Source of the DNA: a bacterium
Lineage (GTDB): Bacteria; Acidobacteriota; Polarisedimenticolia; J045
Length of the DNA stretch: 38,882 nt
NCBI GenBank assembly: GCA_021372775.1
Contig: JAJFTU010000248.1
Location: 1 to 38,882, forward strand
Direction: 5' to 3'
This document shows, piece after piece, positions 1-24,523 of the stretch (its first letter is position 1; each line of letters begins with the position of its first letter). The notes under the pieces were generated by a model. It saw nothing but the letters and a program-made list of their open reading frames with translations. It did not search any database and was not told the origin of the DNA. Both the position numbers and the translations under genes were made by a program.

Positions 1-498
1 GAGGGCGGCGACGGCGCCGACGCCGGCCGAGAGCCCGTCCATCACGTCGATCAGGTTGAAGGCGTTCGTGACGCCCATGATCCAGAGCAGCGTCAGCGGG
101 TACTCGACCCAGTCGGGCAGATAGACGAGCTGGATGCGGACGCCGCCCTTGACGAGGACGAGCGCGGCCAGCAGCTGCCCGGCGAGCTTCGTGCGCGGGC
201 TCAGCGAGCCGAGGTCGTCCACGAGCCCGAGGACGAGGACGATCGATCCGCCGAGGAGCATCGCCAGCAGGTTCTGGTCGAAGCTGAAGGTCACGCTCAG
301 CGCGACGAGGACCCCGAGCGCCACGGCGAGGCCGCCGAGGTAGGCGACCGGCTCCCGCTGCGTCTTGAGCCGGCCGTCCGGACGGTCCACGATGCCGAAG
401 CGGAGCGCCGCCTCGCGGAAGCGGGGCGTGAAGAGACGCGCCGTCCCCCACGCGAGGAGGAGCGCGGCCGCGGCGAGGACGACGTCGAGCCATTCCAT
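1..498 (-). CDS. WecA/MraY-family polyprenyl-phosphate glycosyl-1-phosphate transferase (N-terminal 166 residues, cut by window edge)
   Basis: The frame stays open from ATG at 498 to the window edge, so the C-terminal half is missing. The protein begins MEWLDVVLAAAALLLAWG and has several hydrophobic segments. It carries the family signatures: LVDDLGSLSPRTKL (the Asp-Asp motif that contacts Mg2+ and the nucleotide sugar) and TNAFNLIDVMDGLSAG (the N-x-x-N-x-x-D-G-x-D-G-type motif). Enzymes of this family move a sugar-1-phosphate from a UDP-sugar onto undecaprenyl phosphate at the inner membrane and so start O-antigen, teichoic-type or exopolysaccharide chains. The start sits 4 bp after the stop of the GT2 gene, with GGAG inside that gene's last codons as ribosome site. 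It is the last visible gene of the pilus/glycan array. WecA/TagO type is more likely than MraY from its glycan neighbours, but this cannot be settled on half a protein. Confidence 0.88.
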   Translation of the reverse strand, partial: MEWLDVVLAAAALLLAWGTARLFTPRFREAALRFGIVDRPDGRLKTQREPVAYLGGLAVALGVLVALSVTFSFDQNLLAMLLGGSIVLVLGLVDDLGSLSPRTKLAGQLLAALVLVKGGVRIQLVYLPDWVEYPLTLLWIMGVTNAFNLIDVMDGLSAGVGAVAAL

Positions 499-502
499 CG
501 CG

Positions 503-1489
503 TCAGCTCCAGACGCCGCGCGGCGGCACGCCCCGCCGCCATTCGCCCCACGCGCCGACCCGGCGCCGATCGGCGCGGCGCGCGTAGAGGGCGCGCGCGA
601 AGGCGCCGCCGCAGCCGAAGAGCAGCCGGCGCGCCACGCGCGGGCGCTTCAGCAGCAGCGCCGCCCACAGCGCCGCCTCGCGCGCGAGCACGAACGGCGC
701 GTCGAGCAGCAGCGCGCCCCATCGGTCGTGGCGCAGCATCGTCAAGTAGCGGTTCCGCGCCGCCATCAGCGTCACGTCGTCGCCGCGCGAGAAGGAGCTG
801 CCGAGCCGTCCCGCCTTCGCCCCGCCGCCGCGCAGGTGGACCGCCTGCGCCCGCGGCTCGTAGACCGCCTTCCAGCCGGCGCGCCACGCGCGCCAGCCGA
901 TCTCGAGGTCCTCGGTGAAGGCGAAGAAGTCGGAGGAGAAGAAGTCGGCGCCGTCCGAGACGTCGCGGATCATCGTGCGCCGATAGAGCGCCGCGGCGCC
1001 GCAGGCGGAGAGGACCGGCCCCGGCCGCAGCAGCGACGCGTCGAGCGGCCGCCCGTAGCCGCGGTCCACGACCTTGCGCGAGCGGCCGAGGAAGAGCCCC
1101 GCGCTGTCCACCGTCGCGCCGTCCGGCCGCATCAGCCGGCCGGCGACGATCCCGACCCGCGGATCGGCGAACGCCGGCAGCGCCTGGGCGACGAAGTCGG
1201 GCGCGAGCCGCGCGTCGGGATTGAGCAGCAGGACGAACTCCCCCCGCGCGAGGGCGAGGGCGCGGTTGTGGCCGCCGGTGTATCCGTGGTTCCGCTCGAG
1301 GCGGACGATCCGCGCCGCGTCGCCGAAGCGGCGCGCCAGCGCGTTCGGCGTGTCGTCGGTCGAGGCGTTGTCCACGACGATCGTCTCGACCGGCGCGCCC
1401 TCCTGGGCGAGCGCCGAGCGCACGGCCTCCTCCGCGACGTCGCGGGAGTTCCACGTCAGGACGACGATGCTGACGAGAGGATCGGGCAT
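503..1489 (-). CDS. GT2 family glycosyltransferase (rhamnosyltransferase-like)
   Basis: This 328-residue protein has a GT-A fold. The nucleotide-sugar site is visible as SIVVLTWNS (7-15) and VDNASTDDT (39-47), followed by GGHNRAL (72-78) and the metal-binding NPDA (90-93, the DxD equivalent). The later segment FTEDLEIGWRAWRAGW is the ED/W-R acceptor-side motif typical of WbbL-like rhamnosyl- and related transferases. It probably adds one sugar to a lipid-linked intermediate on the cytosolic face of the membrane. Its ATG overlaps the stop of the upstream double-ligase gene by one base (TGATG), which implies translational coupling. The predicted WecA-type initiator follows 4 bp later. Donor and acceptor cannot be read from sequence. 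A long basic C-terminal tail may associate with the membrane. Confidence 0.9.
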   Translation of the reverse strand: MPDPLVSIVVLTWNSRDVAEEAVRSALAQEGAPVETIVVDNASTDDTPNALARRFGDAARIVRLERNHGYTGGHNRALALARGEFVLLLNPDARLAPDFVAQALPAFADPRVGIVAGRLMRPDGATVDSAGLFLGRSRKVVDRGYGRPLDASLLRPGPVLSACGAAALYRRTMIRDVSDGADFFSSDFFAFTEDLEIGWRAWRAGWKAVYEPRAQAVHLRGGGAKAGRLGSSFSRGDDVTLMAARNRYLTMLRHDRWGALLLDAPFVLAREAALWAALLLKRPRVARRLLFGCGGAFARALYARRADRRRVGAWGEWRRGVPPRGVWS

Positions 1490-4400
1490 CAGTTCAGCTT
1501 CAAGGATCGGAGTCTCTGGAGTTCGTCCGGCTCGAGCCGCAGCAGCGTCGCCTCGAGCGGGCTCGCCGGCTTGTAGCCGTCCCATTGCCGCGCCCGCCGC
1601 GCCAGTTCCGCGAACTGCGCCCGGGCCTCCTCGATTTTGCCCCCCTCGGCGAGAAGGCGCAGCAGGTCGAGCCGCGCGCCGAGGTAGTTCGGCTCGAGAT
1701 CGAGCGCGGCGCGGACGTCCCGCTCCGCCGCCGCGGCGTCGCCGAGGCTCGCGGCCAGGCGTCCGCGCCCCCGTCTGAGCGGCGCGCTCGTCGGCCGCGC
1801 GGCGATCGCCGCGTCCCACGCCGCGCGCGCCGCCGCGCAGGTCGAGCGCTCGGCGAGCGGACCGCGGCAGAGCGCGTCCTCGAACGTCGCGCGCTCCTCG
1901 AGGAACGCCGTTCCGCCGCGCGCCGCTTCGCCGGCCCGCTCGATCCCTTCGGCCGCGGCGGCCAGACGCCGCTGCGCCGGCCCGGAGGCCCCGCGCGCGA
2001 CCGCGATGTGCGCGACGACGCGCGCCGGATCGAGCGCCGCGGCGAGATCGGGCCGCCCTCCCCGCTGCGCGAAGTCGGCCCCCCACGGCGCCGCCTCGCC
2101 CGCGAGCAGCGCGACGACCGCCGCGACCGCGACGACGCAGCGCGAGGCGACGCCGAGCCGCAGCGCCCGCGCCCCCGCGCGTCCGCCGAGCGCGCCGAGC
2201 AGCGCGGCCGACGCGATCGCGACGGCCGGACGCGCGGCGAAGAGGTCGTCCACCAGCGCGTGCGCGCCGAACGCCGCGAGCGCCGCCAGCGCGCCCGCCT
2301 CGGCGCCCCAGTCCTCGCCGCGCGAGCGGACGGCGCGCGCCGCCCGCGCGACGCACCAGGCGAGCCCCGCGAGCAGCAGGATCCCGCCGACGACGCCGAG
2401 ATCGACGAACGGGGCGAGGAGGTCGCTGTGCGGCCCGAGGAACTGCTTCGCGTACTCCGCCGGCCCCTGCGGATCGCGGAAGGCGTAGCCGCGCGCCACG
2501 GCGGGGAACCCGCCCGGCCCGACGCCGAAGATCGGCCGGTCGCCGATCGCGGCGAGCGCCGCGCGCCAGATGCCGACGCGGCTGTACGGGAACGGCACGC
2601 CGTTCATGAAACGCCAGGCCAAGGCGCCGCCCCCGGCGGCGAGCCCCAACCCGACGAGGCCCCCGACGACCAATCGCTGCCTGCCGCGCGCGGCGACGAA
2701 GGCGAGAACCAGCCCTCCGGCGGCGAGCGCGAGCAGCGAGGCGCGCGCCGCGCCGAGCAGCCCCACGACGCAGAGCGCGCCGGCCGCCAGTCCCCAGCGG
2801 AAGCGCCATTTCCGGTCTTCGCCCAGCGCGTAGCCGCCGACGGCGAGTCCGGCGGCGACGAGGTAGGTCCCGATGTGGCCCGGATGAAGGAAGTCCCCCG
2901 CCGGACGGAGCGGGTCGGCGCGCAGCGGCACCTCGGCGTTGGCGAGATCGAAGCCGAGGAGGATCGCGCCGCGCTGCACCATCCAGAGCGCGCCGGCGAG
3001 CGCCGCCGAGGCGACGAAGACCCACAGCACGACCTGCGTCCACGAATCGTCGCCGCGCGCGACCTGCCACGAGAGGACGAGCACGGTCAAGGCGCCGACC
3101 AGGCCGAGAAGGCCGTCGCGCGCCATGCCGAGGTCGGGCGCGGCGAGCGTCGCCAACGCGGCCCAGAGCACGGCGGGAAGCAGCGCGACGATCGGGAGGA
3201 GCGGCAGCGAAACCTCCGGCCGCTCTTCGTCCGGCGCGCGCCGCGGCCACAGCAGCGCGAGGAGGCCGACGACGACGAGGATCTGCCGCCCGAGCCGCGC
3301 GCCGGGAAGCGCGCCCCCCTCGCCCCAGACCACCGCGAGCAGGACGAACGCCAAGGCGAGCATCGTCGCCGAGGCGGCGCCCGGGCGGAACCAGCGCTGC
3401 ACGAGCGTCGCCGCCAGCAGCGCCTGCAGCCCGAGCAGCAGCAGGTCCCAAAGCTCCCAGTCTTCGTTCGTCGCCGGCGTCGGAACGCCTCCGTACTCCA
3501 AGGGGCGCGAGCCGAGCCCCGCGGCGGCCAGCGAACTCTCCAACGCCGACGCCTGCGCGGCGAGCGCGCCGTCCGCCGGATGGCGCGCCGCGGCGAGCCG
3601 CAGATCGACGAGCGCCGGCCCCGGCTCGCCCGCGGCCAGCTCGGCGTCGGCCGCGAGATGGAACCCCGCGGGCGAGTAAGGGTCGAAGCGCTTCAGACGC
3701 GCCGCGACGTCCGCGGCCGCGGCCGCCGCCGTCCCGCCCGCCTTCGGCGCGGCGGCGAGCAGAAGTCGCCCGGCGTCGAGCTGCAGCGCGGGGGACGCCA
3801 ACGGAGAGCGGGCCGCCGTCAGCGCGTCGCGCGCCGCGCCGGCCGCGTCTCCGGCGACGAAGGCCGCGTCGGCGCGGTCGAGGGCACGGCGCGCGCGCGC
3901 CTCGAGCGCGTACCACGCGCCTCCGGCCGCGATCAGCGCCGCGAGCCCGCCGACCGCCGCGACGCGGACGACCCGCCGCGCCTTGGCGTTCCACGCGTCG
4001 TCCGGCGAAGACGACGACGCCGTCTCCCGCCGCCCGGCGGTCGGTCCGTCGTCGCCGAAGGCGATCCCCGCCAAGGCGGCGGCGGCCCACGAAACGCCCG
4101 GAAGGAAGAGCGTGAAGTCGAAGAGGTTGTGGGCGACGAAGGCGACGACCGCCGCCGCCGCGAACCGCCGCTCCTGGTCGGCCAGCGCGCGCCGGCGCCG
4201 CCAAGCCCACCACGCCCCCGCCGCGAGCGCGGCCGCCGCGGGCAGGCCGCCCTCGACCGCCAACTGCAGCCAGGCGTTGTGGGCGTAGACGGTCGGCAGA
4301 TCGTCCGGCCGCGCCACGTTCGGATAGACGGCGCCGAACCCGCCGAGCCCGAGTCCGGTCACGGGGCGCTCCCGCGCCGCGACGACGGCGCCGCGCCAGT

Positions 4401-5199
4401 TTCCCGCCCGCAGACGCAGCGGATTGCGCGGATTCGAGAGGCCAAGATCGTGCATCGGGCGCGCGGCCAGCACGCCGGCGAACAGCGCGGCGACGGCGAC
4501 GAGCGCGACGATCCACGCCGCGCGGCGCCGGCGCAGCGTCGAGAAGGCGAGCAGCGCGAGCAGTCCCGCGGCGCCGCCCAGCAGCGCGCCGAACGAACCG
4601 GTCAGGGCCAGCGCCGAGGCGAGCAGGACGGCCGCCGCCGCGACGAGCCACTTCCGCGAAGCGCCGCGCCACAGCAGGCCGCACGCGGCCAGCGCGAGGA
4701 CGAGCAGTCCGCCGAGCGCCGCGGGGAGCGTCTCCGTGCCGAACGGCCGCTGGTCGGCGAGGCGCGCCACGACGTCGGCGGGCGCCCCCGCCGCCGCGGC
4801 CGCGGCGGCCATGCGGCGCAGCAGGAAGAGCCGCTGCGCGACGCCGAGCGCCGCCTGCGCCGCGCCGACGAGGCTCCACGCCAGCGCCCTTCGCTCGCGG
4901 GGCGCGAAGCGCCGCGCGCAGAGAAAGACGGCGACGAGCGGCAGCGCTCCCGCGGCGACGGCCAGCGTGCGCAGCGGGGCGAGCGAGACGGCGGCGTTGA
5001 AGGCGAGGGCGGAGAGGGCGACGCCGACCGCGACGAAGGACGAGCCGAGGCGCAGCGCCGCGAGCGCCGCGAGGACGCAGGCGAGCGCGCCGGCCTCGGG
5101 ATACGCCTCCGGCGGAAACGCCGACGCCAGCGCCGCGGCGACGATCGCCGCCGCCGCTTCCAGGCGGACTCCGCTCCTCGCCTCCGCCGCTCCCATCAT
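1489..5199 (-). CDS. Twin O-antigen ligase/Wzy_C membrane protein with two ligase modules and two helical tails
   Basis: One uninterrupted frame of 1236 residues contains two successive copies of an O-antigen-ligase-like unit. Unit 1 (about 1-385) has many membrane segments, then the Wzy_C region NWRGAVVAARERPVTGLGLG (267-286) and periplasmic AHNAWLQLAVEGG (306-318), with His307 as the usual ligase histidine. Unit 2 (about 582-1035) repeats this as SRVGIWRAALAAIGDRPIFG (873-892) and GPHSDLLAPFVDLG (922-935), with His924. Each unit ends in a soluble Ala-rich helical, TPR-like tail (about 430-560 and 1050-1236). Family members move a lipid-linked glycan to lipid A core (WaaL), to pilin (PglL/TfpO) or to another chain (Wzy). 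No in-frame ATG or GTG lies at the junction (codons 560-599), so two overlapping genes are unlikely. The start overlaps the upstream stop (ATGA); a second ATG lies 3 bp later. The substrate is unknown. Confidence 0.85.
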   Translation of the reverse strand: MMGAAEARSGVRLEAAAAIVAAALASAFPPEAYPEAGALACVLAALAALRLGSSFVAVGVALSALAFNAAVSLAPLRTLAVAAGALPLVAVFLCARRFAPRERRALAWSLVGAAQAALGVAQRLFLLRRMAAAAAAAGAPADVVARLADQRPFGTETLPAALGGLLVLALAACGLLWRGASRKWLVAAAAVLLASALALTGSFGALLGGAAGLLALLAFSTLRRRRAAWIVALVAVAALFAGVLAARPMHDLGLSNPRNPLRLRAGNWRGAVVAARERPVTGLGLGGFGAVYPNVARPDDLPTVYAHNAWLQLAVEGGLPAAAALAAGAWWAWRRRRALADQERRFAAAAVVAFVAHNLFDFTLFLPGVSWAAAALAGIAFGDDGPTAGRRETASSSSPDDAWNAKARRVVRVAAVGGLAALIAAGGAWYALEARARRALDRADAAFVAGDAAGAARDALTAARSPLASPALQLDAGRLLLAAAPKAGGTAAAAAADVAARLKRFDPYSPAGFHLAADAELAAGEPGPALVDLRLAAARHPADGALAAQASALESSLAAAGLGSRPLEYGGVPTPATNEDWELWDLLLLGLQALLAATLVQRWFRPGAASATMLALAFVLLAVVWGEGGALPGARLGRQILVVVGLLALLWPRRAPDEERPEVSLPLLPIVALLPAVLWAALATLAAPDLGMARDGLLGLVGALTVLVLSWQVARGDDSWTQVVLWVFVASAALAGALWMVQRGAILLGFDLANAEVPLRADPLRPAGDFLHPGHIGTYLVAAGLAVGGYALGEDRKWRFRWGLAAGALCVVGLLGAARASLLALAAGGLVLAFVAARGRQRLVVGGLVGLGLAAGGGALAWRFMNGVPFPYSRVGIWRAALAAIGDRPIFGVGPGGFPAVARGYAFRDPQGPAEYAKQFLGPHSDLLAPFVDLGVVGGILLLAGLAWCVARAARAVRSRGEDWGAEAGALAALAAFGAHALVDDLFAARPAVAIASAALLGALGGRAGARALRLGVASRCVVAVAAVVALLAGEAAPWGADFAQRGGRPDLAAALDPARVVAHIAVARGASGPAQRRLAAAAEGIERAGEAARGGTAFLEERATFEDALCRGPLAERSTCAAARAAWDAAIAARPTSAPLRRGRGRLAASLGDAAAAERDVRAALDLEPNYLGARLDLLRLLAEGGKIEEARAQFAELARRARQWDGYKPASPLEATLLRLEPDELQRLRSLKLN

Positions 5200-6761
5200 C
5201 TCGATCCTTCGGCCGCCGCGCCGCCCGCGGCGCTCGGTCCGCGCGGCGGAACGCCCGCGTCCCGCGCCGTCCCCGACGGGGCGCCGGGCGCGGGCGTCGG
5301 CGTCGCCGGCGCCAGATCGTACGCCGTCACGTAGAACCACCGCTCTCCGCCGGGGAAGAGCCACTCGAAGCGGCACGACGAAAAGAGCTTCCCTTCGAGA
5401 TCGCCGAAGCGGGCCTCCGGCGTGCCGGGAATCGGCGAGACCGCGACGTGGACCTTCGGCCGCCGCCGCGCGGCGTACTCCCACTCGCGGCCGGCGCGGC
5501 GGAACGGCACGATCGCCGGCGTCGCCAGGCCGTTGAGGTCGAGCACGGGCCGGTCGGTGACCCAGCCCATCAGCCCGATGTCGTGCAGCGCGATCAGGTC
5601 TCCCGGCGCCGTGCGCCGCGCGACCTCGGCGGCGAGCGGCGCGACGCACTGGTCCATCGAGCGGGCGTAGGCGCGGGTCCGCGGCGCAACGACCGTCGCC
5701 GCGAAGACCGCCTCGAACGCCAGCGCGGCGAGGCACGCGCCGACGGCCACGGCGCGCCGCCGCGGCGCCGCCGCACCCGCCGCGCGGGCGATCGCCGCCG
5801 CGCCGAACGGAACGACGGCGGCGACGAGCGGCGCGACGTAGCGCGTGTAGACGACCACGCCGTAGAGGGCGTAGATGCCGGCCAGCCCCGCGGCGAACAG
5901 CAGCGCCGCGCGTCCGGACGCGGCGTCGTCGTCGGCCCCGCGCGCGCGGCGCAGCGCCTCCCACAGCCCCGCCGCGATGAACAGCGCCTGCGTCGAGCCG
6001 AGCACCGCGCCGGTGCGCGCGAGCGAGGCGACGATCCCGGCGAGGCTCTCCCCCGGCCCCTTGGCGATGGCGGTGGACGGAACGGGCGAGCCCCAAACGG
6101 CGAGCGAGAAGGCGAGCCACGCCGCGCCGAAGACCGCCGTCGGCGCGACGAGCGACGCGGCGCGGCGCAGCGTCCGTCCGCGGCGCGTCGTCCACTCCGC
6201 GAGCAGGACGGCGCACGGCAGAACGGCGAGCTCGGGCCGCGCCAACGGCGCGAGCGCCAAGAGCGCCCCGGAGCCCCACGCCGCGCGTTTCGACGTTCCG
6301 GCGTCGAGCCGCAGCGCCAAGCCCCACGCCGCGAGCGCGGCGGCGAGCCCCGCCTCCATCCCGCTCCACGACCAGCGGACGATCCACGGATCGAGCGCCA
6401 GCGCCGCGAACGCGATCCAGCGGGCCCGCTCCCCGCCCAGACGCCGCGCGAGCTCCATCCCGCCGCCGAGGGCGGCGAGCCAGGCGAGGGCGGAGAGCAC
6501 TTGCGCCGCGGCCGGAGAGAGTAGCCCGACCTTCCCCCGCCCGAGCAGCGAGAAGAACCAGATCGGCGAGCTGGCGACGTTGACCGCCTCGCCCGCGTTG
6601 AAGCCCCATCCGCGCCCCTCGAGAACGTTGCGGGCCATGCGGAGGTAGATGTAGAGATCGTCGGTGCGGAAGACGCCGCACAGCAGCCACGCCGCCGCGA
6701 GCGCGGCCGGCGGCAGGAGCCACGGCGCGAGCCGCCGGACGGCGGTGGCGTTCCCGTTCAT
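5196..6761 (-). CDS. GT-C type polytopic membrane glycosyltransferase
   Basis: This 521-residue protein has about ten or more hydrophobic segments and a soluble C-terminal domain. Its first extracytoplasmic loop carries DDLYIYLRMARNVLEGRG (34-51) followed by WGFNAGE. This is the acidic-pair motif of GT-C enzymes that use polyprenyl-phosphate sugars, similar in layout to the arabinofuranosyltransferase/LA_3751-like group. The C-terminal part (about 360-500) contains LIALHDIGLMGWVTDRPVLD, a segment common to this family. The ATG at 6761 is preferred because the hydrophobic N-terminus begins directly after it. Its stop overlaps the start of the twin ligase (ATGA). It lies 73 bp after the second pilin gene. 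A role in building or transferring a surface glycan is inferred from family and neighbours; donor and acceptor are unknown. Confidence 0.78.
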   Translation of the reverse strand: MNGNATAVRRLAPWLLPPAALAAAWLLCGVFRTDDLYIYLRMARNVLEGRGWGFNAGEAVNVASSPIWFFSLLGRGKVGLLSPAAAQVLSALAWLAALGGGMELARRLGGERARWIAFAALALDPWIVRWSWSGMEAGLAAALAAWGLALRLDAGTSKRAAWGSGALLALAPLARPELAVLPCAVLLAEWTTRRGRTLRRAASLVAPTAVFGAAWLAFSLAVWGSPVPSTAIAKGPGESLAGIVASLARTGAVLGSTQALFIAAGLWEALRRARGADDDAASGRAALLFAAGLAGIYALYGVVVYTRYVAPLVAAVVPFGAAAIARAAGAAAPRRRAVAVGACLAALAFEAVFAATVVAPRTRAYARSMDQCVAPLAAEVARRTAPGDLIALHDIGLMGWVTDRPVLDLNGLATPAIVPFRRAGREWEYAARRRPKVHVAVSPIPGTPEARFGDLEGKLFSSCRFEWLFPGGERWFYVTAYDLAPATPTPAPGAPSGTARDAGVPPRGPSAAGGAAAEGSR

Positions 6762-6834: not shown

Positions 6835-7290
6835 TCAGCGATCGGGGCTGGCGGTGAAGACGCCGTCCACGTAGACGATGTCGTTCTCGTAGTGATCGCG
6901 GCTCGCGCGCGAGATGTCGGCCGGCCCCATCGCGCCGTCGTTGCCGTAGCTGCGCAGCGTGTAGTCGTGCTGGTCGGTGCTGTAGACCAGATCGTGCCGC
7001 CACGCGTCCTGGACGTCCGCAACTTGGATCGCCCCTCCGCTGAGCGCGGTCTTCAGCGTGGCGCCGGCGCTCCCGTCCTGCGGCATGTAGGAGTAGTCCA
7101 TCTGGTAGGCGTGGATCGCCGAACCGACGGTGCGCATCGTCGCCATCGTCTTCGTCTGCCGGGAGCGGTCGAGCGCCCCCCGCAGGTTCACCACCGCGAT
7201 CGCGGCCAGGATGCCGATGATCGCCACGACGATCAGCAGCTCGACGAGGGTGAAGCCGTCCTCGCGTCGCCGGGCATGGAACGATTTCAT
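6835..7290 (-). CDS. GspG-like type IV pilin, second of a tandem pair
   Basis: A 151-residue prepilin. The leader MKSFHARRREDG is cut after Gly12, leaving mature FTLVELLIVVAIIGILAAIA with Glu at mature position 5, the classic class III signal and assembly helix. The C-terminal half reads DAWRHDLVY, then YTLRSYGNDGAMGPAD and NDIVYVDG. This is the pattern of the GspG major pseudopilin, whose loop binds calcium, not that of Neisseria or Pseudomonas PilA with its disulfide loop; there is no cysteine. It lies 85 bp downstream of the first pilin gene, separated by a strong hairpin, and has its own AGGGGAGG-like ribosome site. It may be a second structural pilin or a minor one. Membership of a type II secretion system is less likely because every neighbour is a pilus gene. 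Confidence 0.9.
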   Translation of the reverse strand: MKSFHARRREDGFTLVELLIVVAIIGILAAIAVVNLRGALDRSRQTKTMATMRTVGSAIHAYQMDYSYMPQDGSAGATLKTALSGGAIQVADVQDAWRHDLVYSTDQHDYTLRSYGNDGAMGPADISRASRDHYENDIVYVDGVFTASPDR

Positions 7291-7375: not shown

Positions 7376-7852
7376 TTACTTCTGGACGCCTTCCGGCCAC
7401 TGCACGAACTGCCCGCCGGAGAAGATGATCGACGCGGTGAACGCTTGCGTCGCACCGGTCGCAGTCGACGGTTCGCTGGAAGCGGCCTGCCCCCCCTTGC
7501 CGGTGGACCAGATCGTGTAGAGGGAGCCGTCGGCCGAGACGTAGCCCATCGGCTTCGCCCAGCCGTCCTTGACGGGCAGGTTCTTCATGTAGACCGGGGT
7601 CAACATGCCGGCCATCTGGCCCGTGCCGGTGTCGTCGCTGAGGGCCACGGCGGTGTGCTGCGGGTACTTGTTGTTGTCCACGGCGTAGGCCTCGACGGCC
7701 GTGCCGATGGAGCGCATGTCGGCCATCGTCCGCTTCTGCTTGCCGCGGTCGATCGCGTTGAGCAGGTTCGGAATCGCGATGGCGGCGATGATGCCGATGA
7801 TCGCCACGACGATCAGCAGCTCGATCAGGGTGAAACCACGATTCTTCTTCAT
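7376..7852 (-). CDS. pilA: Type IV pilin (GspG-like), probable major pilin
   Basis: A 158-residue prepilin with a short leader MKKNRG and mature FTLIELLIVVAIIGIIAAIA, with Glu at mature position 5. The globular part has KDGWAKPMGY and SLYTIWSTGKGG, the GspG-type calcium-loop layout, and no cysteines. Residues 121-142 form a Ser/Thr/Ala/Pro-rich low-complexity stretch (for example AASSEPSTATGATQAFTAS), the kind of segment that is O-glycosylated in neisserial pilins. It follows pilS-pilR and sits behind a sigma-54 promoter with a good ribosome site (GGGAGGTGA). This makes it the best candidate for the regulated major pilin. The symbol rests on context; sequence alone would also allow a type II pseudopilin. 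Confidence 0.9.
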   Translation of the reverse strand: MKKNRGFTLIELLIVVAIIGIIAAIAIPNLLNAIDRGKQKRTMADMRSIGTAVEAYAVDNNKYPQHTAVALSDDTGTGQMAGMLTPVYMKNLPVKDGWAKPMGYVSADGSLYTIWSTGKGGQAASSEPSTATGATQAFTASIIFSGGQFVQWPEGVQK

Positions 7853-8064: not shown

Positions 8065-9456
8065 TCAAGTTTCGTCCTCGTCGCCGCCCTCGTCACCACT
8101 TTTCCCGGCAAGGCCGAACTTTTTCGCGAAGTACCGGAACGACCGGAACGTCATGCCGAGGCGTTCGGCCGCCCGCTTCTGGACGCCGCCGCTCGCGGCG
8201 AGGGCCGCCGCCATCAGCGTCCGCCGTTCGGCGTCCAAGTGCGCTTCGAGGTCGAAGCCGTCGGGGAGCGCCCCGTCCTCGAGCCGCCGCTCCCCGCCGT
8301 CGAGCAGTTCCGGCGGCAGCGTCTCGACGCCGAGGTGGTCCCCCGCGGCGAGCGCCACGGCGCGCTCGAGCACGTTCTCCAGCTCCCGCACGTTGCCGGG
8401 CCAGGAGTGGCGCGCCAGCGCGGCGACGAAGCCCGGCGTCGTCCCGGAAATCCTCCGCCCCATCCGCTCCGCGGCGCGCGCGACGAGCGACTCGACGAGG
8501 TCCGGCAGGTCGTCCATCCGCTCGCGGAGCGACGGCAGGTGGACGCGGATCACGTTGATCCGGTAGTAGAGGTCGCCGCGGAAGCGTCCGTCCGCGACCA
8601 AGGACTCGAGGTCCTGGTGGGTCGCGGCGACGATCCGCACGTCCACCGGGATCTCCTCCGCGCCGCCGACCCGCCGGATCCGCCGCTCCTGCAGCACCCG
8701 CAGCAGCTTGGCCTGCATCGCGGCCGGCATGTCGCCGATCTCGTCGAGCAGCAGCGTGCCTCCCGCCGCCGATTCGACGAGGCCGGCGCGCGAGCGGTCC
8801 GCCCCGGTGAAGGCGCCGCGCACGTGGCCGAACAGCTCGGACTCCAGCAGGTCGGGCGGGATCGCCGCGCAGTTGATCGAGACGAGCGGCTTCTCGGCGC
8901 GGCGCGAGGCGCGGTGCAGCGCGCGGGCGGCGATCTCCTTCCCCGATCCCGACTCGCCGGTGAAGAGGACCGTGGCGTCGGTCGGCGCGACCCGCTCGAT
9001 CAGCTCGCGCACCGCGCGGATCGCCGGCGAGTGGCCGGCGAGGTCGGACGAGACGGCGAGGCGCGCCTTGAGCCGCCGGTTCTCCAGCGAGAGGTCGTGC
9101 ATGCCGAGCGCGCGCCGGACGTGCAGCCCCATCTCCTCGATGTCGAACGGCTTCTCGAGATAGTTCACGGCGCCGTGGCGCATCGCCTCGATCGCCGATT
9201 CTTTCGTGCCGTAGGCGGTGACGACGATCGACGGCGTGTCCGGAGCGATCTCCGCCGCGCGGCGCAGCAGCTCGACGCCGTCGATTCCCGGCATCGCCAA
9301 GTCGGTCAGCAGCAGGTCCACCGGCTCGGCGGCGAGCGTTTCGAGCGCGGCCTCGCCCGAGGCGGCGGCGAGCACGCGGTGCCCGTCGGCCTCGAGCGCG
9401 GCGGCGAGCATCTCGCGGATGCCCCGCTCGTCGTCCACGACCAAGACGACCGCCAT
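8065..9456 (-). CDS. pilR: NtrC-family sigma-54 response regulator (PilR type)
   Basis: A 463-residue activator. The receiver domain (1-120) has the acidic pocket DDE (8-10), phospho-acceptor Asp52 in LLLTDLAMPG and Lys102 in EKPFD. The AAA+ domain (about 138-375) has Walker A GESGSGKE (167-174), the sigma-54 contact loop GAFTGA (214-219) and Walker B TLLLDEIGD. The Fis-type DNA-binding helices are at the C-terminus (QKRAAERLGMTFRSFRYFAKK). It should hydrolyse ATP to open RpoN promoters when phosphorylated. It starts 2 bp after the pilS stop and lies just upstream of the predicted sigma-54 promoter of the pilins, so the target is very likely that promoter. Family and context agree with PilR. 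The Asp-, Glu- and Gly-rich tail after the helix-turn-helix is unremarkable. Confidence 0.95.
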   Translation of the reverse strand: MAVVLVVDDERGIREMLAAALEADGHRVLAAASGEAALETLAAEPVDLLLTDLAMPGIDGVELLRRAAEIAPDTPSIVVTAYGTKESAIEAMRHGAVNYLEKPFDIEEMGLHVRRALGMHDLSLENRRLKARLAVSSDLAGHSPAIRAVRELIERVAPTDATVLFTGESGSGKEIAARALHRASRRAEKPLVSINCAAIPPDLLESELFGHVRGAFTGADRSRAGLVESAAGGTLLLDEIGDMPAAMQAKLLRVLQERRIRRVGGAEEIPVDVRIVAATHQDLESLVADGRFRGDLYYRINVIRVHLPSLRERMDDLPDLVESLVARAAERMGRRISGTTPGFVAALARHSWPGNVRELENVLERAVALAAGDHLGVETLPPELLDGGERRLEDGALPDGFDLEAHLDAERRTLMAAALAASGGVQKRAAERLGMTFRSFRYFAKKFGLAGKSGDEGGDEDET

Positions 9457-9458
9457 CG

Positions 9459-11102
<1,644 letters not shown>

Positions 11103-11118
11103 CGGAGGCGCGGCGGGA

Positions 11119-11140
11119 GGGCGGGCCGCGCGGCCCGCCC
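11119..11140. other. 22-bp perfect GC palindrome between pilC and pilS
   Basis: The sequence centred on GGGCCGCGCGGCCC is fully self-complementary over 22 bp in the 52-bp gap between pilC and pilS. It has no T-run after it. It could form a hairpin that damps read-through from the structural pilus genes into the regulators, but this is not shown. Confidence 0.45.
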
Positions 11141-11154
11141 CCCGCCGAGGAGAC

Positions 11155-12357
11155 TCAGCCGATCTTGCTGATCAGCGAGAACATCGGCATGTACATCGCG
11201 ATGACGATGCCGCCGATGACGACGCCGAGGAAGAGGATGATCAGCGGCTCGAGGAGCGAGAGCAGGTTCTGCGTCGCCTCGTCCACTTCGTCCTCGTAGA
11301 AGTCGGCGATCTTGGAGAGCATCGTGTCCATCGCGCCCGTCTGCTCGCCGACCTGGACCATCTGCACGACCATCGACGGGAAGACGCCCGACTTGGCCAG
11401 CGGCTCGCTGATCGTCTTTCCCTGCTCGACCTCCTTGCGGACGTTCTGGATCGCCTCCTGCACGACGGCGTTGCCGGCGGTGCGGGCGGTGATGTCGAGC
11501 CCGTCGAGGATCGGCACGCCCGAGCTGGTCAGCGTGCCCAGCGTGCGGCAGAAGCGCGCGACGGCGATCTTGCGCAGCAGCGTCCCGATGACCGGGAACT
11601 TGAGCATGAAGGCGTCGAGCGTCCGCCGCCCCTGCGGCGTCTGGTAGTACTGCCGCACGAGCACGACCGCGGCGACGATCACGCCGAGCACCAGCCACCA
11701 CCAGCTGCGGAGGAAGTTGGACAGGTTCACGACGATCTGCGTCGGCAGCGGCAGCTGGGCGCCGAGGCCGGCGAACAGGTCGGCGAAGACCGGGATGACG
11801 AACGTCAGGATGACCCAGACGACGACGCAGGCGATGACGATGACCGAGACCGGGTAGACCAACGCGCCGCGGACCGCCGCCTTGAGCTTCACCGCCTTCT
11901 CGATGTAGGTCGAGAGGCGCTGCAGGATCGTGTCGAGGATGCCGCCGGCCTCGCCGGCGGCGACCATGTTGGCGTAGAGGTCGTCGAAGACCTTCGGGTG
12001 CTTGCGCATCGCGTCGGCGAGCGTGGACCCCGACTCGACGTCCTGGCGCACGTCGGTGAGGACGGCCGCGAAGACCTTGTTCGACTGCTGGCCGGCGAGG
12101 ATCTCGAGGCACTGCACCAGCGGCAGGCCGGCGTCGATCATCACCGAGAACTGACGCGTGAAGACGGCGATGTCCTTGCTGCCGACCGACCCGCGCAGCT
12201 TCGGCAGCGCCAGTTCCTTGCCCCGCTCGGCGACGGTCGCCTGCGTCACGCCTTGGCGGCGCAGGGCGGCGATCGCCTCCGCGCGGCTGGACGCCTGCAT
12301 CGTCCCCTCGCGCATCTCGCCGGTGCGGGTCTTTCCTTTCCACGCGTAGGTCGGCAT
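11155..12357 (-). CDS. pilC: Type IV pilus inner-membrane platform protein PilC
   Basis: 400 residues, the normal length for PilC/GspF. It starts MPTYAWKGKTRTGEMREG, typical of the family, and contains two T2SF repeats (about 65-190 and 268-390). Signatures such as GEAGGILDTILQRLSTYIEK in the first and GEQTGAMDTMLSKIADFYE in the second are visible. Three strongly hydrophobic segments are seen (near 170-195, 220-240 and 370-395). PilC couples the PilB and PilT motors to the pilin-assembly site in the inner membrane. A GGAGGG ribosome site precedes the ATG. It sits directly after pilT, 49 bp away, in the classical pilB-pilT-pilC order. Confidence 0.97.
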   Translation of the reverse strand: MPTYAWKGKTRTGEMREGTMQASSRAEAIAALRRQGVTQATVAERGKELALPKLRGSVGSKDIAVFTRQFSVMIDAGLPLVQCLEILAGQQSNKVFAAVLTDVRQDVESGSTLADAMRKHPKVFDDLYANMVAAGEAGGILDTILQRLSTYIEKAVKLKAAVRGALVYPVSVIVIACVVVWVILTFVIPVFADLFAGLGAQLPLPTQIVVNLSNFLRSWWWLVLGVIVAAVVLVRQYYQTPQGRRTLDAFMLKFPVIGTLLRKIAVARFCRTLGTLTSSGVPILDGLDITARTAGNAVVQEAIQNVRKEVEQGKTISEPLAKSGVFPSMVVQMVQVGEQTGAMDTMLSKIADFYEDEVDEATQNLLSLLEPLIILFLGVVIGGIVIAMYMPMFSLISKIG

Positions 12358-12406
12358 CTTCCGCTCCCTCCCGGCGCGGCGGCGCGCCGAGGGCTTTACG
12401 GCCGTT

Positions 12407-13531
12407 TCAGCGGCGGGCGCCGGGGCCCGCCGCCGGCGGCGCGACGGGGGCTCCGAGCGTGCCCACGCCGCGGTTGATCATCTCCTGCAGCTCATCGGCG
12501 TTGTGCGAGACCGCCAGCGCGGTCTGCAGCGTGATGAGGCGGCGGAAGTAGAGCGTGGCCAGCGATTGGTTGAAGGTCTGCATCCCGAACTTCGACTGCC
12601 CGGACTGCATCATCGCGTAGATCTGGTGGACCTTGTCCTCGCGGATCAGGTTCCGGATGGCCGTGTTGGGGATCAGGATCTCCATCGCCAGCGTGCGCCC
12701 GTGCCCGCTGGACCGCGGCAGCAGCGCCTGGCAGAGGATTCCCTCCAAGGTCAGCGAGAGCTGCGAGCGGACCTGCGGCTGCTGGTTCGGCGGGAAGACG
12801 TCGATGATGCGGTTGATCGTCTGCGCGGCCGAGTTGGTGTGCAGCGTGGCGAACGTCAGGTGGCCCGTCTCGGCCACCCGCAGCGCGCACTCGATCGTCT
12901 CGAGGTCGCGCATTTCGCCGATCAGCACGATGTCCGGGTCCTGCCGCAGCACCGAGCGCAGCGCCGCGGGGAAGGAGCGCGTGTCGGTCCCGATCTCCCG
13001 CTGGTTGACGAGGCAGCGCTTGTGGGAGTGCAGGTACTCGATCGGGTCCTCGATCGTCACGATGTGCGACTGCCGCTCGCGGTTGATCTTGTCGATCATC
13101 GCGGCGAGCGTCGTGCTCTTGCCCGAGCCGGTCGGCCCCGTGACGAGCACCAGGCCGCGCGGCCGCTCGGCGAGCTGGGAGACGGTCTCGGGCAGCCCGA
13201 GCTCCTGGAACGACTTGATCTCCCAGGGGATCGTGCGGAAGGCGGCGCCGACGGCGCCCCGCTGGTTGAAGACGTTGGCGCGGAAGCGCGCCAGCCCCTT
13301 GATGCCGAACGAGAAGTCGAGCTCGAGGTTCTCCTCGAAGCGGTGCTTCTGCTGGTCGGTCATCACCGAGTAGCAGAGGGCCTTCGTCTCCGCCGCGCCG
13401 AGCGGCGGCAACTGCAGCGGGACGAGCTCGCCGTCGATGCGGATCTGCGGCGGCGAGTTGGTGGTGATGTGCAGGTCGGTCGCTCCCTGCTCGACCATCG
13501 TCTTCAGCAACTGCTGCAGCGTGACCGTCAC
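12407..13531 (-). CDS. pilT: Type IV pilus retraction ATPase PilT
   Basis: 374 residues with the full PilT architecture. There is an N-terminal PAS-like domain (DLHITTNSPPQIRIDGE), Walker A GPTGSGKST (132-140), the Asp box around EDPIEYLH, Walker B IVLIGEMRD (201-209), the His box and the retraction-specific AIRNLIRE motif (291-298). That motif separates PilT from PilB. It hydrolyses ATP as a hexamer to pull pilus subunits back into the membrane, powering twitching and DNA uptake. The start is GTG at 13531, supported by GGAGG seven bases upstream. It lies between pilB and pilC. The Pro/Ala/Gly-rich C-terminal tail after residue 355 looks disordered. Only one PilT is present here. Confidence 0.97.
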   Translation of the reverse strand: MTVTLQQLLKTMVEQGATDLHITTNSPPQIRIDGELVPLQLPPLGAAETKALCYSVMTDQQKHRFEENLELDFSFGIKGLARFRANVFNQRGAVGAAFRTIPWEIKSFQELGLPETVSQLAERPRGLVLVTGPTGSGKSTTLAAMIDKINRERQSHIVTIEDPIEYLHSHKRCLVNQREIGTDTRSFPAALRSVLRQDPDIVLIGEMRDLETIECALRVAETGHLTFATLHTNSAAQTINRIIDVFPPNQQPQVRSQLSLTLEGILCQALLPRSSGHGRTLAMEILIPNTAIRNLIREDKVHQIYAMMQSGQSKFGMQTFNQSLATLYFRRLITLQTALAVSHNADELQEMINRGVGTLGAPVAPPAAGPGARR

Positions 13532-13553
13532 TTCCCGCCTCCCCGCGTCGAGC

Positions 13554-15296
13554 TCAGAGAACCGTCTCGCGCACGACTTCGTCGATCGTCGTCACGCCGT
13601 CCGCGATCTTGGTCAGTCCCGAATGGCGCAGCGAGATCATCCCCTCCTCGATCGCCCGCCGCTTCAGTTCCAGCGCCGAGCAGCCGGTGAGGATCATCTC
13701 GCGGATCTCGTCGCTGATCTCCAGCACCTCGAAGAGGCCGACGCGCCCCTTGTAGCCCGTGTTGTTGCAGGTCGGGCAGCCGCGTCCCTTGAAGACCTTC
13801 GCCGTCTCCGCCTCCTCGGGGGTGAAGCCGATGTCCACGAGGGCGCGCGGCGGAACGGGCATCTCCTGCTTGCAGTCGCGGCAGACGCGCCGCACGAGCC
13901 GCTGAGCGCAGATCAGGTTCACCGACGTCGCGACGAGGAACGGCTCGATGCCCATGTTCATCAGTCGGTTGATCGTCGAGGGGGCGTCGTTGGTGTGCAG
14001 CGTCGAAAGGACCAAGTGGCCGGTGAGCGCCGCCTTGACGGCGATTTCCGCGGTCTCGAAGTCGCGGATTTCGCCGATCAGGATGATGTTCGGGTCCTGG
14101 CGCAGGAAGGCGCGCAGCGCCTCGGCGAAGGTCAGCCCGATCGCCTCCTTCGTCTGCACCTGGTTGATCCCGTGGAGGTTGAACTCCACCGGGTCCTCGG
14201 CGGTCATGATGTTCGTCTCGGGCGTGTTGACCCGTCCGATGGCCGAGTAGAGGGTGTTCGTCTTGCCCGACCCGGTCGGGCCGGTGACGAGGACCATCCC
14301 CCACGGCTTCAGGATCGCCTTGGTGAACTTCTCGAGCGATTCCGACTCGAAGCCGAGCTTCGTCAGGTCGAGCGCCAGGTTCTCCCGGTCGAGGAGCCGC
14401 AGCACGACCTTCTCGCCGAACAGCACCGGCACGGTCGAGACGCGGTAGTCCATCTCGCGCGTCCGGCCGTCGAGCCGCATCTTGATCTTGATCCGGCCGT
14501 CCTGCGGCAGCCGCCGCTCCGCGATGTCGAGCTTGGCCAGGATCTTCAGGCGGCTGATGATCGCGTCGCGCAGCTTCATCGGCGGCTTCATGTACTCGTA
14601 GAGCACGCCGTCGACGCGCAGCCGCACGCGGAAGTCCTTCTCGTAGCTCTCGACGTGGATGTCCGACGCGCCGCGCTGGATCGCGTCCACGAGGATCTTG
14701 TTGACGACGCGCACGACCGGCGCGTCCTCCGACTGCACCTCGAGGTTGCCGGCGTCGATCTCGTCCTCGTCCGACATCAGCTCGAGGTCTTCGGCCGCCG
14801 CGCCCCCCTCCGCGTCCGCCGCCGCGGCCTCCGCCGCCATCTCCGCCCCGAAGAGCTCCATCCGCCGCTCTTCGTACGACTTGGCGATCGCCTCGCGCAG
14901 CGCGAACTCGCTGGCGAGGACCGGCTCGACCTCGCAGCCGGTGCGGAAGCGGATGTCGTCGAGCGCCACGACGTTCGTCGGATCGGACATCGCGAGGGTC
15001 AGGACGTTCCCCGCCTTGTGGACCGGGAAGACCTGATAGCGCGAGGCGAGCTGCTCGGGAATCTGCGCCAGCAGTTCGCGGTCCACGTGCGGGTAGAGGG
15101 AGCGCAGGTCGATCGCCGGGATGCCGTACTGCTCGGAGAGCATCTGCACGAGGTCTTCCTCGGTGACGCTCCCCTGGCTGACGAGGTGGAAGCCGACCTT
15201 CCCCCCCTCCGCCTTCTGCCGTTCGAGGGCCTGGCGCAACGCCTCCGGCGTGACCAGCCCCTCCTCCAGCAGCAGATCGCCGATTCGCTCCGACAT
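13554..15296 (-). CDS. pilB: Type IV pilus extension ATPase PilB
   Basis: 580 residues from the ATG at 15296. That start is chosen because GGGAG precedes it and the conserved N-terminus begins there; an upstream in-frame ATG at 15338 would add 14 unlike residues. The MshEN/T2SSE_N domain covers about 1-145 with two repeats, RIGDLLLEEGLVTPEAL and VGFHLVSQGSVTEEDL, each near the c-di-GMP-binding consensus. An acidic, Ala-rich linker follows (about 148-192). The ATPase part has Walker A GPTGSGKTN (339-347) and Walker B NIILIGEIRD (403-412). A zinc site is formed by Cys472, Cys475, Cys507 and Cys510. It drives pilus extension. It follows the Roadblock gene after a 141-bp gap. Confidence 0.97.
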   Translation of the reverse strand: MSERIGDLLLEEGLVTPEALRQALERQKAEGGKVGFHLVSQGSVTEEDLVQMLSEQYGIPAIDLRSLYPHVDRELLAQIPEQLASRYQVFPVHKAGNVLTLAMSDPTNVVALDDIRFRTGCEVEPVLASEFALREAIAKSYEERRMELFGAEMAAEAAAADAEGGAAAEDLELMSDEDEIDAGNLEVQSEDAPVVRVVNKILVDAIQRGASDIHVESYEKDFRVRLRVDGVLYEYMKPPMKLRDAIISRLKILAKLDIAERRLPQDGRIKIKMRLDGRTREMDYRVSTVPVLFGEKVVLRLLDRENLALDLTKLGFESESLEKFTKAILKPWGMVLVTGPTGSGKTNTLYSAIGRVNTPETNIMTAEDPVEFNLHGINQVQTKEAIGLTFAEALRAFLRQDPNIILIGEIRDFETAEIAVKAALTGHLVLSTLHTNDAPSTINRLMNMGIEPFLVATSVNLICAQRLVRRVCRDCKQEMPVPPRALVDIGFTPEEAETAKVFKGRGCPTCNNTGYKGRVGLFEVLEISDEIREMILTGCSALELKRRAIEEGMISLRHSGLTKIADGVTTIDEVVRETVL

Positions 15297-15437
15297 CGTC
15301 TCCCGCCTCGGCCGCGACCCACGGCCTTCCGCCGTCAAACGTGGCGGCCCGCCCCCGTTCGGTCAAGGCCGCCGTCCGGACCGTTCCGGTCGCCGACGGT
15401 CCGCGGACTCATTGTGTCACAGACCGCGCGCGGCGCG

Positions 15438-18758: not shown

Positions 18759-19300
18759 GCCCCTTCCTCCTCGGCGGCCTCTTCCTCGCCGCCCTTGACC
18801 TGGAGTCGCTTGATGACGTCGCGATACGGCTTGATGCGCCGCGGGTCGTCCACCTGCTGGCGGAAGACGACGATGCCGCGCTTGACGTCGATCGACATCA
18901 CGCGGCCGTCGTAGACGACGTCGCCGACGTGAAGCGAGTAGCCGCGGTTGTCGGTGCCGCGGAACATCGCGACGGGCGCTCCGCGGACGTCGGTGGCCAC
19001 GCCGCGGAGGTCGATCTCCCCCACCCCCATGCCGGCGATCCCCTTCGGCCGCTTCCCGTCGCGCTCCTTCTGGAGCTTGACGAGCGGTTCGAACGGATCG
19101 CGCCGGCCGGCCGGATCGTAGGTGAAGTGGCGCCCGGCCAGCACCGCGTCGTTGTCCTTCTGAATCTGCTGGAGCATCTGCTCGCTCCGCTCCTGCGGAG
19201 TCTGCTGCGGGGCGGGCGGCGGCGGCGCCTGGGCGAGCGCCGCGCCCGCCGCGGCGACGGCCGCGAGCAAAGCGGAAACGGCGAGCCGCGAAATCTTCAC
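18755..19300 (-). CDS. pilP: Type IV pilus alignment protein PilP
   Basis: 181 residues starting at GTG (19300), which overlaps the pilO stop as GTGA and has GGGAGGTG six bases upstream. It has a cleavable signal (MKISRLAVSALLAAVAAAG, then ALAQA) but no cysteine at all. Unlike the Pseudomonas and Neisseria PilP lipoproteins, it is therefore probably not lipidated. A Pro/Gln linker follows, then the PilP core with DPFEPLV (about 68-74), IDLRGVATDVRGAPVAMF and GYSLHVGDVVYDGRVMSID. These form the small beta-sandwich that touches PilQ. It links the PilN/PilO inner-membrane dimer to the secretin. An acidic tail of Glu and Ala closes the protein. Confidence 0.93.
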   Translation of the reverse strand: MKISRLAVSALLAAVAAAGAALAQAPPPPAPQQTPQERSEQMLQQIQKDNDAVLAGRHFTYDPAGRRDPFEPLVKLQKERDGKRPKGIAGMGVGEIDLRGVATDVRGAPVAMFRGTDNRGYSLHVGDVVYDGRVMSIDVKRGIVVFRQQVDDPRRIKPYRDVIKRLQVKGGEEEAAEEEGA

Positions 19301-19896
19301 GCCCCACCTCCCGGACCCTTCTGCGGGGCCGCCTTTTCTTCTTTGTAGATGTAGGTCTTGGCGACGAAGTCCGCCCGGATCGTGGCCTTGACCTTGCGGT
19401 CCATGTTGGGGTTGATCCGCACGTCCTCGACGTTGATGATCCGGGCGTACTTGCTGATGCGGTCGTAGAACAGGCCGAGCTGGTGGTAGTTCCCGACGAC
19501 CTGCATCACGATCGGCTGCTCGCGCAGGAACTCGCGGTCGGCGAGCGGCTGCGGGTTGAAGACGATCAGGTCGAGGTTCGTCTGGTCGGCGAGGCTCTTG
19601 ATCCACTTGAGCAGATCGCCCATCTCCGGTTCGGTGGGAAGGATCTGCTTGAGGTCGTCGAGCTTCCGCTCCAGCGCCGCGGTTTCCCGCTTCAGCTCTT
19701 CGAGCTTCTTGAGCGCCAGCTCGCCCTTGCGGATCTCTTCGTTCCGCTGGTCGAGCTGCTTCTGCAGTTCTTCGATCTGGCCGTACTTCTCGGAGAAGTT
19801 GAGCGGCGGCAGCTTCCACTGGGAGCCGTAGATCGCGGCCGCGGCGGCCAAGGCGAGCAGCAGCTGCGCCCAGACGGGCATGTTCTTCAGGTTCAT
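19297..19896 (-). CDS. pilO: Type IV pilus alignment protein PilO
   Basis: 199 residues: a short cytosolic N-terminus (MNLKNMPVW), one membrane helix (about 8-24) and a coiled coil (about 38-85, rich in Leu, Glu and Lys). A ferredoxin-like periplasmic domain follows, with DLLKWIKSLADQTNLDL and VVGNYHQLGLFYDRISKYARI, both typical of PilO. It forms heterodimers with PilN and binds PilP, bridging the PilC/PilM platform to PilQ. It starts 3 bp after pilN and overlaps pilP by 4 bp, so all are likely made together. The length is normal for the family. Confidence 0.95.
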   Translation of the reverse strand: MNLKNMPVWAQLLLALAAAAAIYGSQWKLPPLNFSEKYGQIEELQKQLDQRNEEIRKGELALKKLEELKRETAALERKLDDLKQILPTEPEMGDLLKWIKSLADQTNLDLIVFNPQPLADREFLREQPIVMQVVGNYHQLGLFYDRISKYARIINVEDVRINPNMDRKVKATIRADFVAKTYIYKEEKAAPQKGPGGGA

Positions 19897-19899
19897 CGC

Positions 19900-20508
19900 T
19901 CACCCCTTCCGCGGGGCCGCCGGGGCGGCGGGCTGCGGCGCGGCCTCGGCCGGCGCCTGGGGCGGCTTGAAGCGGCAGGTCAGGACGAAGCTGACCCCTT
20001 CCGGGGCCTTCTGCGTCACGCCCAAGGTGACGTCGCCGAAGAAAGGCGAGTCCTTGAGGTTGTTGTAGAAGTTCGACACGGCGTTGTAGGTCGTCGCCTT
20101 GCCGCGCATCGAGATCTGCCCGCCCTTCTCCTCGAGCGCCTCGAGCCAGAGGAAGTCGGGAAGCTGGCGGCTGACCATGTCGAGCAGCACGACGGGGACG
20201 TTCTGCCGCCGCTTGAGGTCGGAGATGATCTCCACGCGGTGTTCGAGCGCCGCCTTCTTGGCCTTGTACTCGTCCATCGTCTGCAGCGCCTTCTTCAGCT
20301 GCGCGATGCGGTCGTCGGCCTGGCGGATTTCGTCCCGCATGCCGTTGATGCGGTGGTCGAGCTGGTACCAGTGGACCCCGGCCGCGGCGATGCCGAGCAG
20401 CACGACGACGAAGGCGAGAATGCCGGAGGCGCCTCCCGTCGTGACCTGCGGCTTCGGCGCGGCGGCCGGCGCCTCCTGGCGCTTCTCCAGCAGGTTGACG
20501 CGGATCAT
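19900..20508 (-). CDS. pilN: Type IV pilus alignment protein PilN
   Basis: 202 residues. The cytosolic MIRVNLLEKR at the N-terminus matches the conserved INLLP-like segment that docks into PilM. A membrane helix (about 27-47) and a coiled coil (about 52-95) lead to the PilN periplasmic fold (LLDMVSRQLPDFLWLEALEE and NAVSNFYNNLKDSPFFGDV). A Pro/Ala tail ends the protein. Its ATG overlaps the pilM stop (ATGA), so translation is coupled to pilM. It pairs with PilO in the inner-membrane alignment complex. Confidence 0.95.
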   Translation of the reverse strand: MIRVNLLEKRQEAPAAAPKPQVTTGGASGILAFVVVLLGIAAAGVHWYQLDHRINGMRDEIRQADDRIAQLKKALQTMDEYKAKKAALEHRVEIISDLKRRQNVPVVLLDMVSRQLPDFLWLEALEEKGGQISMRGKATTYNAVSNFYNNLKDSPFFGDVTLGVTQKAPEGVSFVLTCRFKPPQAPAEAAPQPAAPAAPRKG

Positions 20509-21569: not shown

Positions 21570-21611
21570 TCGTCCCTCCACGCCGGTCCAAGGGCATTTC
21601 GCCCCATGCAA

Positions 21612-22363: not shown

Positions 22364-24523
<2,160 letters not shown>

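Follow-up and report, generated by a model that had tools for sequence, protein, structure and literature searches.

The window analysed here is a stretch of 38,882 nt (contig JAJFTU010000248.1 of assembly GCA_021372775.1) from a bacterium of the Acidobacteriota class Polarisedimenticolia. At the end of a type IV pilus gene cluster it carries, on the minus strand, a single gene encoding a protein in which two O-antigen-ligase-type (Wzy_C) modules are fused (Table 1). The minus-strand frame running from 5199 to 1489 contains no internal stop codon. An open frame alone is weak evidence in this region, because long shadow frames are common at its GC content of 75-79% (one of 1249 aa lies on the plus strand). 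The frame was nevertheless taken as a real gene, since the encoded protein is matched from end to end, at 35-49% identity, in relatives of other genera and genomes. Its ATG overlaps the stop codon of the upstream gene (ATGA) and its stop codon shares one base with the ATG of the downstream glycosyltransferase gene, and the fused gene is therefore part of a tightly packed operon.

Table 1. Fused gene, its modules and the neighbouring genes in the window (TPR, tetratricopeptide repeat; GT, glycosyltransferase).
Feature	Position (nt)	Strand	Remarks
Fused twin O-antigen-ligase protein, 1236 aa	1489-5199	-	ATG at 5199, TGA at 1491-1489
Module 1 membrane part, residues 13-429, 13 predicted membrane helices	3913-5163	-	model; match to WaaL 7TPG/7TPJ
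Module 1 Wzy_C domain, residues 188-325, with R264 and H307	4225-4638	-	62 bits
H307 codon	4279-4281	-	invariant, 45/45 first modules
Module 1 TPR tail, residues 430-562, predicted periplasmic	3514-3912	-	
Fusion-specific linker, residues 570-604	3388-3492	-	adapter membrane helix 583-602 = nt 3394-3453
Module 2 membrane part, residues 605-1037, 13 predicted membrane helices	2089-3387	-	model; match to WaaL 7TPG/7TPJ
Module 2 Wzy_C domain, residues 807-943, with R819, R874 and H924	2371-2781	-	34.9 bits
H924 codon	2428-2430	-	His in 39/43 second modules, 8/8 fused
Module 2 TPR tail, residues 1038-1236	1492-2088	-	C1111/C1121 pair
WecA-like phosphoglycosyltransferase (Glycos_transf_4)	1-498	-	cut by contig end
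Family 2 glycosyltransferase (GT2)	503-1489	-	ATG shares a base with the fused-gene stop
Large predicted membrane protein, GT-C-like by eye	5196-6761	-	stop overlaps the fused-gene ATG
Second type IV pilin-like gene (N_methyl + T2SSG)	6835-7272	-	
First type IV pilin-like gene (N_methyl + T2SSG)	7376-7852	-	
pilB-pilT-pilC-pilS-pilR block	8065-15338	-	type IV pilus cluster
pilM-pilN-pilO	19297-21611	-	same type IV pilus cluster

Each half of the protein separately exceeds the cut-off of the Pfam family Wzy_C (PF04932; 31.7 bits), which gives two membrane/Wzy_C units per chain against the usual one (a usual architecture, not a strict requirement). A profile comparison shows that the two halves share homology (hhalign probability 99.8, E 3e-30, 309 columns). 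In searches of PDB sequences with profiles of the membrane parts, WaaL of Cupriavidus metallidurans (7TPG/7TPJ) was the only significant match of module 1 (E 1.7e-7) and likewise of module 2 (E 7.8e-13), with the periplasmic histidine aligned in both cases. The matches of the PDB fold search were dominated by the TPR tails for either half, WaaL not being among the 50 matches listed for either, and the structural model of module 1 is of low confidence (mean predicted local distance difference test score, pLDDT, of 61.6; 9 sequences), that of module 2 being better (mean pLDDT 79.8). For these reasons the assignment to WaaL is based on the sequence profiles.

Five residues of module 1 (R151, R247, R264, N267 and H307) are invariant in all 45 copies compared. 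Among 43 second modules, R874 is present in every one, while R819 is arginine in 41 and lysine in two, and H924 is kept in 39; in the fused family all three are invariant. The WaaL-type pairs of a histidine and a loop arginine align and are conserved as H307+R264 in module 1 and H924+R874 in module 2. The corresponding residues of Escherichia coli WaaL are the periplasmic catalytic histidine H338 and the loop arginine R288; its second arginine, R215, was tentatively assigned by us to the TRGA/SRGA motif, at which module 2 has R819. The claim of the sequence-only reading that each unit has its own histidine and its own helical tail is thus confirmed, both histidines being present and conserved and both tails being TPR-like by sequence and by fold search. 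The tail of module 2 also contains a pair of cysteines (C1111/C1121, nt 1837-1869), which is invariant in all eight fused proteins; it may form a disulfide, as would suit a tail located in the periplasm.

The fusion was found in 11 of the 12 genomes of one Acidobacteriota family, eight copies being full-length in one frame and three cut by contig ends; among the fused copies is one from a chromosome assembled as one contig (G002, CP070706.1, an Acidobacteriota metagenome-assembled genome). The double architecture thus recurs in different genomes, which bears out the view that two complete modules occur in one polypeptide. In the sole family genome without the fusion (G005) the PilC of the cluster is missing as well, a 34% paralogue being all that is present. 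Elsewhere in the class (29 genomes of 11 families) no fusion occurs; all but one of these genomes (28 of 29) encode the two modules as neighbouring genes in an unchanged order, and the two genes overlap by exactly 4 nt in 15 of the 19 pairs examined (overlap lengths computed with the most upstream plausible start). The tandem pair is also present in other Acidobacteriota classes (e.g., G044, G045, G059, G060, G107, G136, G150, G156, G280 and G286). At loci L078 and L079 (a single Wzy_C protein) and L080 (two separate, generic ones) no pair of the fused-gene type was found. The family with the fusion was detected by a scan with an alignment; a single-protein scan of the named genomes gave no match. 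The genome of the window itself (G000) encodes two additional Wzy_C proteins (contigs C104 and C27) in frames of about 850 codons, and the one on C104 resembles TIGR03097, an exosortase-associated O-glycosylation ligase, at 130 bits, which is below the cut-off.

In a tree of 102 modules all first modules form one clade (Shimodaira-Hasegawa-like approximate likelihood ratio test, SH-aLRT, 98), while the second modules are grouped, with weak support, on the other side, and the remaining Wzy_C proteins of these genomes are, almost without exception, placed in neither group. The fused copies form one clade per module (SH-aLRT 100 and 99). Because they group together within each module clade, the simplest history suggested by these sequences is that the fusion took place once, at the base of the family. 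The proposal that the gene is not simply two overlapping genes holds here, though nearly all relatives outside the family have just such an adjacent, mostly overlapping pair; likewise, the objection that homologues might always be split at this place fails inside the family, where they are fused, and applies outside it, where there are two genes.

All eight fused proteins contain about 35 extra residues (570-604) between the modules, which the tandem genes do not encode: there, gene 1 stops directly past the TPR tail and gene 2 starts directly before the first membrane helix. In each of the eight linkers there is a hydrophobic stretch (best 19-residue Kyte-Doolittle mean of 1.6-2.5), followed in most of them by arginines, and the linker helix is present in both AlphaFold models. 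The combined density of lysine and arginine in short loops is 0.20 per residue inside and 0.07 outside according to the predicted topology, which supports this topology because it fits the positive-inside rule. With 13 helices in module 1 and a start inside, the tail of this module is predicted to lie outside; since module 2 should also start inside, one extra crossing of the membrane is needed. Helix 583-602 thus appears to ensure that the active sites of the two modules both face outward. The sequence-only reading was mistaken in stating that there is no ATG or GTG near the junction, as there is a GTG at nt 3402 (codon 600) and an ATG at nt 3363 (codon 613), both in frame; neither is preceded by a Shine-Dalgarno-like stretch and no methionine is conserved there in the fused relatives. 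That reading also overlooked the added helix, the pilus cluster and the descent from tandem genes.

Three explanations of the double gene were rejected. A sequencing or assembly frameshift might have merged two overlapping genes, and outside the family the two genes mostly overlap by 4 nt, so that a single base could join them; such an artefact is hardly conceivable here, given eight full-length fusions in different genomes and a conserved linker and helix not encoded by the tandem genes. A recent local duplication was ruled out by the tree, in which the two module types were already separate long before the fusion. It is also very improbable that the protein is IctB, a bicarbonate-transporter-like protein, although TIGR00947 was its sole NCBIfam match: the score of 46.5 bits compares with a cut-off of 366.4, the transferase histidines and arginines are conserved, and glycosyltransferase genes adjoin.

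The genes around the fused gene are arranged in the order pilM,N,O, pilB,T,C,S,R, two pilins, membrane protein, fused gene, GT2 and WecA-like gene. Pilin genes lie just upstream of the fused gene in the window and in nine of the ten fused relatives with upstream sequence, and just upstream of the pair in 16 of 20 tandem loci. The large membrane protein belongs to no Pfam family, has a weak NCBIfam match to an arabinofuranosyltransferase (28.9 bits), and is encoded in only some of the fused relatives (G002, G006, G008 and G010). Farther downstream, several genomes contain genes for a flavin adenine dinucleotide (FAD)-dependent amine oxidase, a family 1 glycosyltransferase (GT1) and an ATP-binding cassette (ABC) transporter. 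The FAD amine oxidase gene was present near the WecA-like gene in four of four loci, fused and tandem alike (L036, L037, L041 and L064); at least three of these loci also have ABC transporter genes in its vicinity. At one tandem locus the pair is followed by a Wzx-type gene and by genes for a sulfotransferase and a 2-oxoglutarate (2OG) oxygenase. A complete gene for a membrane H+-pyrophosphatase (22364-24523, plus strand) adjoins the pilus cluster in the window.

Several known systems share part of these features. The fused protein resembles WaaL (PF04932) in the profile match of each module and in the aligned residues, i.e., the histidine and the arginines in module 2 and the histidine and one arginine in module 1; it differs in having two modules per chain, TPR tails, a pilus cluster context and a module 1 without the TRGA arginine. 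In E. coli WaaL and Neisseria PglL, one histidine and two arginines were reported as important or conserved, and PglL-type genes mostly adjoin genes of pilins or other likely targets (PMC3643930). This common, though not required, trait of PglL-type genes fits the position of the fused gene downstream of PilA1 and PilA2. PglL and PglS are similar membrane transferases with a periplasmic C-terminal domain, encoded beside pilin genes (PMC3643930, PMC12800693), but in the fused protein PF15864 was not found, and there are two modules and TPR tails. By gene position it can be likened to PilO/TfpO of Pseudomonas, a one-module protein whose O-antigen-ligase-like gene is the immediate neighbour of the pilin gene (PMC3643930). 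Of the published fusions that we found, WadA of Brucella comes closest, a single chain in which an O-antigen ligase is combined with another enzyme; WadA consists of a glycosyltransferase and one ligase (PMC9938171), whereas both ligase modules of the present protein are predicted to point to the same side. The tandem Wzy_C pairs of Acidobacteriota (L050-L068, L096-L116) have the same module types, order and place, but comprise two genes and no adapter helix. In the open-licence papers searched we found no double Wzy_C or double ligase protein, nothing relevant, with the terms used, on pilus glycosylation in Acidobacteriota and nothing on topology in gene fusions.

We consider it probable that the gene encodes a dual-site, lipid-linked glycan transferase devoted to the pilus or to a pilus glycan, which arose by a single-origin fusion of adjacent, coupled genes. 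Its ancestors, in this reading, were two old, adjacent and translationally coupled genes, each for a WaaL/PglL-type transferase (GT-CB fold) with a periplasmic TPR tail. The neighbouring WecA-like transferase and glycosyltransferases would make an undecaprenyl-diphosphate glycan, which would then be flipped to the periplasm, where each module would bind it and transfer it to an acceptor hydroxyl by means of its own histidine and arginine residues. The likely final acceptor would be the pilin encoded just upstream, or another component of the pilus or envelope. The adapter helix (583-602) would bring the chain back to the cytoplasm, module 2 keeping its normal orientation, and the fusion would hold the two active sites in a fixed 1:1 ratio within a single polypeptide. 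The data establish the two modules, their conservation, the fusion of a tandem pair, the additional hydrophobic helix and the pilus context, while the topology, catalysis by both modules, the glycan donor and the pilin acceptor are inferred. A relay or processive version, in which a fused polymerase and ligase would polymerise or hand over the lipid-linked glycan and attach it to the type IV pilin, is put forward with considerable doubt.

Several observations weigh against a dual-site transferase of the pilus. The arginine aligning with that of the WaaL TRGA motif is absent from module 1 in all 45 copies: a TxSxGA-like motif stands where WaaL and module 2 have TRGA/SRGA, with an arginine one residue ahead of the motif serine in 20 of the 45, and module 1 may be altered or less active. 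The histidine has been lost from four unfused second modules, so it is not kept in every lineage; the aspartate or glutamate that replaces it there (L060 of G025, L096 of G156, L097 of G280 and L115 of G286) points to altered or lost activity in certain lineages. The PglL_A motif (PF15864) gave no match in either module at E values up to 0.1, and the PglL-like character noted for unit 1 is not supported as membership, the HN..LQ..E.G pattern being a common trait of the Wzy_C family. Among the immediate neighbours of the fused genes examined, none was identified as a flippase gene, and in a few genomes (G021 and G023) the tandem pair is distant from the pil genes.

The absence of the TRGA-position arginine and the missing histidines would also fit one active ligase joined to a non-catalytic, structural or regulatory module. 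This is quite unlikely in our view, as the invariance of R151, R247, R264, N267 and H307 (45/45), and of R819, R874 and H924 in the fused proteins, is unlike that of a usual dead module. A division of labour, in which one module is a Wzy-type polymerase extending the lipid-linked glycan and the other a ligase that passes the chain to the pilin or another acceptor, is possible, if at rather low probability. The modules belong to the same superfamily, yet have different sets of conserved residues and form separate clades; the scanned neighbours include WecA-like, GT2 and GT1 genes, but none that was recognised as another polymerase gene; and one tandem pair has a Wzx gene after it. On the other hand, polymerases and ligases of this superfamily are inseparable by sequence, no Wzz turned up in the genes scanned, and TPR tails are present on both modules. 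That the two modules are ligases for two acceptors, e.g., the pilins PilA1 and PilA2, and were linked to ensure the modification of both, seems unlikely. The fused gene does have two pilin-like genes ahead of it, in the window as in most fused loci, and the title of Harding (2015), cited in PMC5542475, reports two oligosaccharyltransferases of Acinetobacter, one of them pilin-only, but only a single recognisable pilin gene is present in the tandem loci of G014, G016, G020, G024 and G039.

The fused protein is a known enzyme type in an unusual double architecture, with a defined evolutionary origin. Tandem ligase-type genes tied to the pilus cluster across much of the Acidobacteriota suggest a pilus glycosylation or pilus-linked glycan system in this phylum, and their natural fusion suggests that the two enzymes act together. 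The linker appears to provide an example of a membrane-protein gene fusion that gained a crossing helix, by which the second half retained its correct orientation. Should one module act as polymerase and the other as transferase, the coupling of these two steps would be open to study in a single molecule.
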